DNA from: an uncultured Pelagibacteraceae bacterium
GTDB taxonomy: Bacteria; Pseudomonadota; Alphaproteobacteria; Pelagibacterales; Pelagibacteraceae
DNA: 15,840 bases
NCBI GenBank assembly: GCA_902633885.1
Contig: CACPIK010000013.1
Coordinates: 1 to 15,840, forward strand
Direction of reading: 5' to 3'
Position 1 is the first letter of the stretch. Each line of letters starts with the position of its first letter. Made by a program: the position numbers and the translations under genes. The notes under the pieces are model-generated. The model had not been told where the DNA came from and ran no database searches. It saw nothing but the letters and a program-made list of their open reading frames with translations. Shown here one piece after another: positions 2,495 to 4,277 of this stretch.

Positions 2495-3496
2495 TTATAT
2501 CCAACTTGGTAAAGGAAGGTTCTTTTCTTTTAAGAAAGATTTGTTAAACATTTTTGAGTTATATTTGTCAGATTTATCACACAGAATTGTTACAATAGTT
2601 TTTCCAGGACCAAGTTCTTTACCCAATCTAATAGCTCCAGCAATATTTACACCACAACTTGTGCCTAAACTAAGACCTTCATTTTGAATTAAATCATATA
2701 AAATTGGCAAAGATTCGTGATCACTAATTGAAAAAGCCCCATCTATTTTAGCTTTTGCAAAATTAGCAGTAACTCTACTTGATCCAATACCTTCAGTAAT
2801 TGAACCGCCTTCTGATTTTAACTCTCCATTCTTGATATAATTATAAAGAGCAGAACCCGTTGGGTCAGATAAAAAAATCTTAATATTTTTATTTTTTTCT
2901 TTTAGATAACTGCTAACCCCACCAATTGTTCCTCCGGTTCCCGAAGAACATACAAATCCATCGACTTTCCCTTCTGTTTGATCCCAAATTTCAGGTCCAG
3001 TTGTTTCATAATGTCCTTTAGCATTTGCCGTATTGTCAAATTGATTAGCCCAAACTACACCATGGTTGTTTGAGTTTTTTAATTCTTCAGCCAATCTTCC
3101 AGCAACTTTTACATAATTACCATCGTCTTTATATGGTTTTACAGGAACTAATCTTAAATCTGCACCAATATTAACTAGAGTGTCTTTTTTTTCTTGAGTT
3201 TGGTTATCATTCATTACAATTATAGTCTTATAACCTAAAGAATTTCCTAAAAGACATAATCCAATACCCGTATTACCTGCGGTTCCTTCTACAATAGTTC
3301 CGCCCTTAGAAATTAACTTTTTCTCTTGAGCATCTTTTATTAAAGCTAATGCCGCTCTATCTTTTACGGATCCTCCAGGATTTAAATATTCAGCTTTTCC
3401 ATAAATATTACATCCTGTAATCTCTGATGCAGCTTTGAGTTTTATTAGAGGTGTGTTTCCAATAGATTCAATAAAATTATTGCTGTAATTTTTCAT
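2495..3496 (-). CDS. cysK: cysteine synthase (O-acetylserine sulfhydrylase, PLP fold II)
   Basis: This 333-aa cytosolic enzyme would make cysteine from O-acetylserine and sulfide. The N-terminus has IGNTPLIKL (12-20). The PLP Schiff-base lysine is K45 in [11 protein letters not shown]. The substrate loop is GTAGNTG (71-77), and the phosphate-binding loop is SSGTGGT (184-190). 'ANQFDN.AN...[10 protein letters not shown]' and '[17 protein letters not shown]' are typical of the alphaproteobacterial CysK-type group. The length matches that group. The C-terminal region ([13 protein letters not shown]) also agrees, and there is no CBS domain, which argues against a cystathionine beta-synthase. The start codon overlaps the cysE stop by 4 nt (ATGA), so the two are translationally coupled, the classic pairing of acetylserine maker and user. 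O-acetylhomoserine or another sulfur donor cannot be excluded from sequence alone. Confidence 0.93.
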
Positions 3497-4068
3497 TTAT
3501 TTTCCTTACTTTCTTCAGTAACAGCATAAGGTTTAAATTCTTCAGTTGAAGTACCAATATTTTTAGCTGGAATACCTACCATAACGGCATTTTCAGGAAC
3601 ATCATTAGTAACTACTGCATTTGCACCAATTTTTGAATTTTTGCCAACAACAACAGGTCCCAATATTTGTGCACCTGACCCTACAACAACATTTTCTTTT
3701 AGAGTAGGATGTCTTTTTACATTTCTTTGATTGTCCGAATTAATACTTGGAGAAATTCCACCTAGAGTTACCATATGATATATTGTTACATTGTCTTCAA
3801 TTTCTGAAGTTTCACCAATAACAACTCCCATCCCATGATCTATAAATAAATTTTTACCAATTTTAGCACTTGGATGAATTTCTATACCCGTTAAAAATCT
3901 TGAAAATTGAGAAATTATTCTTGCAATCAAATCAAACTTAGCAACTGAGAAAAAATTTGCTAGTCGATGAAAAAACACTGCTTTAACCCCAGGATAAGTC
4001 AATACAACACTTAATTTTGATTTTGCGGCAGGGTCTCTATTTATTATTGATTTTAAAAATTCATTCAT
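3493..4068 (-). CDS. cysE: serine O-acetyltransferase (EpsC-type, short form)
   Basis: This 191-aa left-handed beta-helix acetyltransferase makes O-acetylserine from serine and acetyl-CoA. After a short helical N-terminal part (1-60), '[27 protein letters not shown]' (61-87) begins the hexapeptide repeats. D77 and H78 match the catalytic Asp/His pair of serine acetyltransferases. Further coils follow: 'VTLGGIS', 'KRHPTL' with H120, and '[27 protein letters not shown]', ending in 'MVGIPAKNI'. It lacks the long N-terminal helical domain of E. coli CysE (273 aa) and matches the shorter EpsC-like class. The acidic C-terminal tail (about 171-191) resembles the flexible tail that docks in CysK (inference; it does not end in Ile). 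It overlaps cysK by 4 nt and follows the cysteine-rich small gene by 34 nt. Confidence 0.92.
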
Positions 4069-4102
4069 AAATATTTAAATGGTTTGTTAATTTAAATAAA
4101 AA

Positions 4103-4222
4103 TTAGCTGTTACAACAGCAGCTTCCTGATTCAGGTAAACACAAGCACTCTTTATTACCATTGCAGACACATAGGTCATATGTACAATTAGTGCATTTAC
4201 ATTTTTGGTTTTCGCATGCCAT
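4103..4222 (-). CDS. 39-aa cysteine-rich, metallothionein-like protein
   Basis: A short minus-strand frame from ATG at 4222 to TAA at 4103-4105 encodes 39 residues. Eleven are cysteines: C3, C8, C10, C13, C18, C20, C26, C28 and the run C35-C36-C37. There are three CxC motifs (8/10, 18/20, 26/28), and the opening K-C-K-C-T-N-C resembles the KCxCxxC start of bacterial metallothioneins. It has no His, Trp or Phe and a single Tyr (15), as expected for a thiolate metal-cluster peptide. An in-frame TAA lies two codons upstream (AAG and TAC intervene), so the ATG is the natural start; no strong Shine-Dalgarno is visible. It fills an otherwise unexplained 209-nt gap in the ETHE1-like / cysE / cysK run, 34 nt before cysE and 55 nt after the ETHE1-like gene. 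The likely role is binding Zn, Cu or Cd, or storing thiols (inference). The second half does not match the SmtA pattern, so the family is uncertain. Confidence 0.72.
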   Translation of the reverse strand: MACENQKCKCTNCTYDLCVCNGNKECLCLPESGSCCCNS

Positions 4223-4277
4223 GTACTTTTATATAGTTATTAAATTTTTAAAGACAATAGTAATTTTTTAAGCAATT

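Follow-up and report, generated by a model that had tools for sequence, protein, structure and literature searches.

The stretch of DNA analyzed here (15,840 nt from an uncultured Pelagibacteraceae bacterium, hereafter the window) raises the question of what a short reading frame crowded with cysteine codons does directly in front of genes for cysteine synthesis. The translation bore out what the sequence-only reading had described, namely a minus-strand ORF of 39 amino acids with eleven cysteines, three CxC motifs, a CCC run, no histidine and one aromatic residue, and the in-frame stop that it had placed just upstream of the ATG is present (TAA, 4231-4229). The ORF runs from 4222 to 4103 and ends with TAA; cysteine accounts for 28% of its residues, with CxC at C8-C10, C18-C20 and C26-C28 and CCC at the C-terminus, and Tyr15 is the only aromatic residue. 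The genes concerned are the following:

4103..4222, minus strand: small ORF of 39 aa with 11 Cys, pattern C-x4-CxC-x2-C-x4-CxC-x5-CxC-x6-CCC
3493..4068, minus strand: cysE, serine O-acetyltransferase, 34 nt downstream of the ORF; passes the NCBIfam cut-off of TIGR01172
2495..3496, minus strand: cysK, cysteine synthase A, overlapping the cysE stop; passes the NCBIfam cut-off of NF007989
4278..4970, minus strand: MBL-fold hydrolase, the upstream but not obligatory neighbour; NCBIfam gloB and sulfur-dioxygenase models below cut-off

The position of the ORF and the identity of cysE and cysK agreed with the earlier description, whereas the label "ETHE1-like" for the upstream enzyme was left unconfirmed because the MBL protein passes no NCBIfam cut-off. 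CysE makes the O-acetylserine needed by CysK. In all 55 positive genomes examined (53 from an order-level draw plus G787 and G822), cysE lies directly downstream of the ORF. In one genome, G293 (locus L119), no MBL gene was found within the 4 kb fetched upstream of the ORF, and the gene following cysE is msrB, not cysK. Since the ORF exists there without an adjacent MBL or cysK gene, its constant partner is cysE and not the MBL gene. The best reading of this layout is that the ORF forms the first cistron of a presumably co-transcribed cysE unit, usually cysE-cysK. Our verdict, drawn from sequence comparisons, is that the ORF represents a putative unannotated new family of metallothionein-like peptides in SAR11 that is tied to cysE.

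No metal gene was recognised among the neighbours of the ORF within the window. On the strand of cysK, four short genes come next (1170-2402); they encode a SnoaL-like, a DUF1330, a GYD-domain and a 96-aa protein, the last of which (2112-2402) has no Pfam match. In G293 (L119 3470-5092), a 137-aa protein without NCBIfam model match is encoded upstream of the ORF on the other strand, which we take to be glyoxalase-like by its look. Several loci (L027-L032, L034-L039 and others) carry a peroxiredoxin gene about 1.3 kb further from the MBL gene, so that something has been inserted between these two genes. Very cysteine-rich mechanical ORFs with 28-29 Cys in 93 aa in L076 (1204-1593) and L077 (108-488) are perhaps the antisense of a low-complexity gene.

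Cysteine conservation and distribution in SAR11

The 111 carrier loci, which partly stem from the same genomes, comprise 87 distinct sequences. Eleven cysteine columns with fixed spacing hold cysteine in 86-87 of these 87 sequences, and TGT and TGC are exchanged freely in them; the four exceptions are single changes in four different columns (L028, L110, L140 and L139/L144). The majority of the other columns is variable, N5 (86/87) and the proline after the last CxC (81/87) being conserved as well. One or two histidines occur in 37 of the 87 sequences and none in 50, 76 sequences lack any aromatic residue, and most members have 11-13 regularly spaced cysteines. With its small size, few aromatic residues and high content of cysteine in CxC, CxxC and CCC arrangement, the family has the composition of the metallothionein class, for which CxC and CxxC spacing is typical.

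Purifying selection on the cysteine codons, which the sequence-only reading had proposed to examine by synonymous and nonsynonymous changes, was evident within clusters, where pN/pS (Nei-Gojobori) was 0.016 at the eleven cysteine codons versus 0.305 at the other codons. The eight cysteine codons upstream of the CCC, with a value of 0.018, are as conserved as the CCC itself. Between the 32 cluster representatives no nonsynonymous change was found at the cysteine codons, and the other codons gave a pN/pS of 0.627, with synonymous sites saturated. An alignment query of a set of 5.8 billion proteins returned 45 metagenome relatives, all of them unnamed and lacking Pfam domains. All eleven cysteines are kept in 37 of them. 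Frameshifted ends account for two of the remaining eight and the lack of one or two cysteines for the other six, losses in which sequencing error and real variation are indistinguishable. As in the metallothionein class, the cysteines are under purifying selection, the four genome sequences and these eight metagenome relatives being the exceptions. Because the cysteines have been kept almost without exception by evolution, the ORF is a genuine gene under strong protein-level selection; what is selected is a protein. Of the alignments prepared, A1 contains 42 of 46 distinct proteins, near-duplicates having been dropped, and A2, the AF2 input, contains 31 of the 45 metagenome proteins; since all eight cysteine-deficient ones were omitted from A2, its list of invariant positions is not evidence.

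To determine the distribution, the MBL protein encoded next to the ORF was used to scan GTDB species genomes; of 511 relatives the best 80 were kept, each of them from Pelagibacteraceae or Pelagibacter. Among these best 80, the ORF lies between the MBL gene and cysE on the same strand in 50 SAR11 loci, while in 21 loci cysE stands beside the MBL gene with a gap of 14-39 nt and no ORF; in the other nine no cysE match was obtained, and no such ORF lies within 400 nt downstream of the MBL gene. The recurrence in 50 of the 80 loci, together with the cysteine columns and the pN/pS of the cysteine codons, makes the ORF more than a product of chance. Nine of the 80 were searched across the whole genome, with a single match in each of the two carriers and none at E <= 1 in the seven non-carriers. 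In the order-level draw the ORF was found in 53 of 397 SAR11 genomes, as a single match in each, and in a family-level draw in eight of 197 genomes, of which two (G787 and G822) were new. Drawn at class level, 385 genomes contained one strong match, in a SAR11 genome, and six weak ones in Alphaproteobacteria (E 0.02-0.09), which were taken as chance, none of the four neighbour genes being present in the stretches of about 3 kb around them. Among viral contigs, 50 pattern matches yielded no confirmed one.

A quick tree of CysE, MBL protein and CysK with 72 rows (51 with the ORF, the window included, and 21 without) needs four changes for the presence and absence of the ORF, versus 18.4 in shuffles. 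If a single origin is assumed, four losses follow, including one in the group that is sister to the window's genome; the ORF was thus probably lost at least four times. Since the tree requires at least four gains or losses, the ORF is dispensable. The frameshifts or stops among relatives that would have spoken against a gene did not appear in any copy among the genome loci, and two of the 45 metagenome predictions have frameshifted ends; the check looked for open ORFs, and the 21 loci without ORF leave only 14-39 nt between the MBL gene and cysE.

For the ORF or its relatives no significant match was obtained in Pfam, NCBIfam, Rfam or PDB, a SAR11 peptide family being absent from the family libraries searched. 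Lone members of A1 touch DUF3648 (0.15), YmjE (2.5) and TIGR01766 (0.15), nothing of weight, and PDB matches to evasin (E 1.1) and eight LDL-receptor-type modules (E 0.73-5.9) were read as matches of cysteine composition.

Upstream boxes and the hairpin at the 3' end

Four elements accompany the coding sequence:

4230..4235, minus strand: -10-like TATATA, 7 nt before the ATG of the ORF
4252..4257, minus strand: -35-like TTGTCT, beginning 35 nt upstream of the ATG
4106..4119, minus strand: hairpin GCTGT-TGTA-ACAGC, spanning codons C-C-C-N-S as far as the stop
4094..4102, minus strand: U-run TTTTTATTT following the stop

All 32 cluster representatives have a TAT[AT] box whose end lies 4-10 nt ahead of the ATG, a count without shuffled control. 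A TTG starting 33-37 nt upstream of the ATG occurs in 32 of 32 representatives and 87 of 87 distinct sequences, compared to a mean of 2.8 and a maximum of 7 of 32 in 300 shuffles of the upstream sequence; this fixed-position comparison is descriptive because the position window was chosen after the alignment was seen. A free best-match promoter scan barely separated real from shuffled sequence (8.9 versus 8.4), and a stricter scan listed no promoter at the ORF, with 5 in the region versus 11.0 expected. The fixed spacing of the boxes places the predicted start on the A of the ATG or directly beside it, which suggests that the ORF has its own promoter-like boxes and a leaderless mRNA. Loci without the ORF have TATATA 6-10 nt before the ATG of cysE in 15 of 21 cases (at about 8 nt in L003, L004, L007-L010, L012-L014, L016 and L017) and none in the other six. 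As the box is kept close to the cysE ATG, cysE may itself be leaderless in loci that lack the ORF.

The final codons (S-C-C-C-N-x-stop) form a hairpin that extends across the stop codon. Its stability was assessed on the last seven codons, the stop and 12 nt against synonymous recodings in 32 clusters. The tail was stabler than its recodings, with a mean z of -2.42 and p<0.05 in 23 of 32 clusters, which share phylogeny and for which p-values are uncorrected; with a poorer codon table, 21 of 32 were obtained. For windows of 12 codons inside the ORF, mean z ranged between -0.2 and -0.9 and p<0.05 was reached by 0 to 8 of 32; the control 3' ends had z around 0, with p<0.05 in 0/31 (MBL), 0/32 (CysE), 3/23 (CysK) and 2/23 (peroxiredoxin). 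Within 12 nt after the stop, TTTT occurs in 17 of 32 clusters versus 5.9 expected (0/500 shuffles), not always adjoining the stem. Because 15 of 32 clusters have no TTTT within this distance, a consistent intrinsic terminator as a general rule was rejected. The 8 nt that follow the stem contain 3.69 T on average versus 3.13 (sd 0.19) in shuffles, and five or more T were found in 5 of 32 clusters versus 4.0. The terminator-like site of the window taken alone lies within chance (1 found versus 0.6 +- 0.8 in shuffles).

RNAalifold returned zero pairs and no consensus stem for the tails, and the register of the hairpin differs between clades. Counting pairs in 40 of 55 distinct tails put 80.7% as paired (76.2% in shuffles), with a covariation of 0.251 versus 0.208 (0/500); double-change pairs were not above shuffles (273/500), and a partner slid by three columns still pairs in 70% because of the TGT repeat. 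In the L001 clade, the L074 clade and L142, the hairpin is not stabler than recodings and every cysteine is kept. Since these lineages and the eight cysteines upstream of the CCC retain their conservation, the peptide itself matters. An RNA-level layer at the 3' end of the ORF is nevertheless probable on sequence grounds, and with a hairpin over the CCC codons the role of a leader peptide (attenuator) must be weighed too.

Readings of the peptide's function

We favour, with somewhat better than even confidence, the reading that the peptide is metallothionein-like and works as a metal-thiolate peptide, encoded by a gene with a leaderless mRNA before cysE. A sigma-70-type promoter belonging to the ORF would give rise to a leaderless message starting at the predicted position. 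The peptide, once translated, would use its spaced cysteines to fold about a thiolate cluster of Cu(I) or Zn(II), and would buffer these metals in cells whose genomes yielded no heavy-metal P1B exporter. Co-location and presumable co-transcription with cysE would supply cysteine for a product that consists of cysteine to more than a quarter, and the hairpin might tune read-through into cysE. The earlier proposal of a metallothionein in a streamlined marine genome holds in so far as SAR11 encodes here a genuine small protein, rich in cysteine, whose composition and CxC spacing are those of a metal-thiolate peptide; it is not a member of SmtA/PF02069. Counting against the metallothionein reading are the absence of a recognised metal gene among the neighbours, the dispensability of the ORF, the cysteines missing in 8 of 45 metagenome relatives and in four genome sequences, the genomic link to cysteine synthesis, the lack of a match to any known metallothionein family and the RNA signal at the 3' end, which a plain metallothionein does not predict.

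No PF02069 gene above the cut-off was found in 197 SAR11 genomes, the control cyanobacterium being positive; one SAR11 genome had a match with E 0.003, which is below the cut-off and contains an internal stop. Heavy-metal P1B ATPases (TIGR01525, at 1e-10) were found in none of 53 carriers and none of 53 non-carriers (the latter hand-picked from the 397-genome draw), all of them genomes of unstated completeness, and controls were positive in 14 of 14 cases. The absence of these exporters does not explain who carries the ORF, because it is equal in both groups. In place of metal export, a cell could reasonably rely on a thiol buffer in its cytosol, which is background and not proof given that carriers and non-carriers alike lack P1B. 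The AlphaFold2 model of the peptide (pLDDT 59.5) has no confident fold, a value that is compatible with a peptide folding on metal but uninformative and nothing positive.

A dual role, which overlaps the metallothionein reading, can be proposed tentatively: the peptide would be a metal-thiolate buffer of SAR11 and its own translation a cysteine gauge for cysE. Synthesis of so cysteine-hungry a peptide would drain Cys-tRNA, ribosomes would stall on the CCC codons in the hairpin, and cysE would be raised; if true, a metallothionein coding sequence serving as attenuator of cysteine synthesis would be a new regulatory arrangement. A pure leader peptide without any job of its own is unlikely in our view. 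It would let ribosomes stall on the CCC when Cys-tRNA is short, with the 5' arm of the hairpin covered at the stop codon and transcription or translation proceeding into cysE, and would let the hairpin form and limit cysE when cysteine is ample. As in cysteine attenuators, a short ORF with Cys codons stands immediately upstream of a cysteine gene in 55 of 55 genomes, including G293 without adjacent mbl and cysK; the leaderless promoter-like spacing, the tail stabler than recodings in 23 of 32 clusters, unlike the 3' ends of four neighbour genes, and the TTTT shortly after the stop (within 12 nt) in 17 of 32 clusters point in the same direction, and so do the precedents of Cys-codon uORFs before Rhodobacterales cysS (PMC8632094, in excerpt) and actinobacterial cys operons (PMC1262725, in excerpt). 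However, a leader has no need of eight Cys codons upstream of the CCC that hardly vary and keep their spacing, all cysteines are retained in lineages where the hairpin is not selected, 15 of 32 clusters have no TTTT near the stop, no RNAalifold consensus emerged, and the hairpin of the window alone is within chance. Moreover, the available part of PMC5069961 reports that cysE and cysK of P. ubique were not upregulated under sulfur limitation, in a strain that may or may not carry the ORF; locus L051 (Ca. Pelagibacter ubique) has none.

Quite unlikely, too, is a metal-free thiol or sulfane-sulfur buffer, which would serve as a cysteine store or as a shuttle of persulfide sulfur between the MBL enzyme and CysE/CysK. 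It would suit the role of CysE and CysK in thiol metabolism, the match of the MBL protein to a sulfur-dioxygenase model, albeit below cut-off, and the dependence of SAR11 on reduced sulfur stated in the accessible text of PMC5069961, but storage needs no fixed cysteine spacing with CxC pairs, the MBL gene does not adjoin the ORF in G293, and locking up scarce reduced sulfur seems costly. The constant neighbourhood of cysE would also be expected of a protein ligand of CysE or of another enzyme, that is, a regulatory subunit with structural Zn and no metal buffering; a binding interface, however, should not evolve as fast as the non-cysteine positions do (pN/pS 0.63 between clusters), and we hold this to be very improbable. 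A chance ORF, or an RNA element only, would agree with the missing database family but is refuted here by codon-level selection across 87 sequences and retains next to no probability.

To our knowledge, copper and zinc handling in SAR11 is poorly understood; where no heavy-metal P1B exporter is detected, a metallothionein-like peptide that has been conserved would fill one of the gaps in this picture. According to the available excerpt of PMC4161860, a metagenomic survey found few detoxification genes in P. ubique, and the available text of PMC13198564 counts SAR11 among the most abundant ocean cell groups and says that the lineage has few transcriptional regulators. The accessible portions of the open-access literature on SAR11/Pelagibacter metallothionein, cysE/cysteine and small cysteine-rich proteins, subscription journals being outside this scope, contained no description of the ORF. 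The hairpin over the poly-Cys end offers a directly testable mechanism of cysteine sensing.

Comparison with known systems

Like SmtA and BmtA (PF02069), the peptide is short, cysteine-rich and bacterial, and SmtA has CxCxxC motifs near its N-terminus, as has the ORF peptide. The sequence-only reading was right that the rest of the ORF does not follow SmtA/BmtA: neither the window ORF nor any of 42 members matches PF02069 (0/42 at E <= 10), and the window member has no histidine, ends in CCC and sits before cysE. As for the histidine ligands and zinc-finger-like fold of SmtA/BmtA, 50 of the 87 sequences are without histidine, and the AlphaFold2 model (pLDDT 59.5) is too poor for folds to be compared. 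With MymT, the mycobacterial copper metallothionein (PMC7558416, in excerpt), it shares the nature of a small unannotated cysteine-rich ORF; the lineage is another one, and family searches gave no match for the ORF.

On the side of leader peptides, no Rfam family matches the window stretch, although Rfam may not hold uORFC-8-2. Mycobacterial polycysteine leaderless short ORFs were reportedly described by Canestrari 2020. They resemble the SAR11 ORF in their leaderless layout and run of Cys codons, and in M. smegmatis leaderless Cys-codon ORFs act as attenuators, the downstream gene being regulated by cysteine availability (PMC9031893, in the part available); their Cys codons are contiguous, whereas the SAR11 ORF has spaced cysteines, protein-level selection and a hairpin over the CCC. 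The actinobacterial cys leader peptides are likewise short ORFs with Cys codons near the stop in front of cys genes, but the excerpt of PMC1262725 describes no conserved terminator hairpin for them, and in the SAR11 ORF the hairpin lies on the codons. Likeness in another respect is found in uORFC-8-2 of Rhodobacterales cysS, an alphaproteobacterial uORF with tandem Cys codons inside its (first) stem, which, as far as the accessible text of PMC8632094 goes, differs from the SAR11 ORF in having two stems, a U-run in all cases and two cysteines only, and in standing before cysS.
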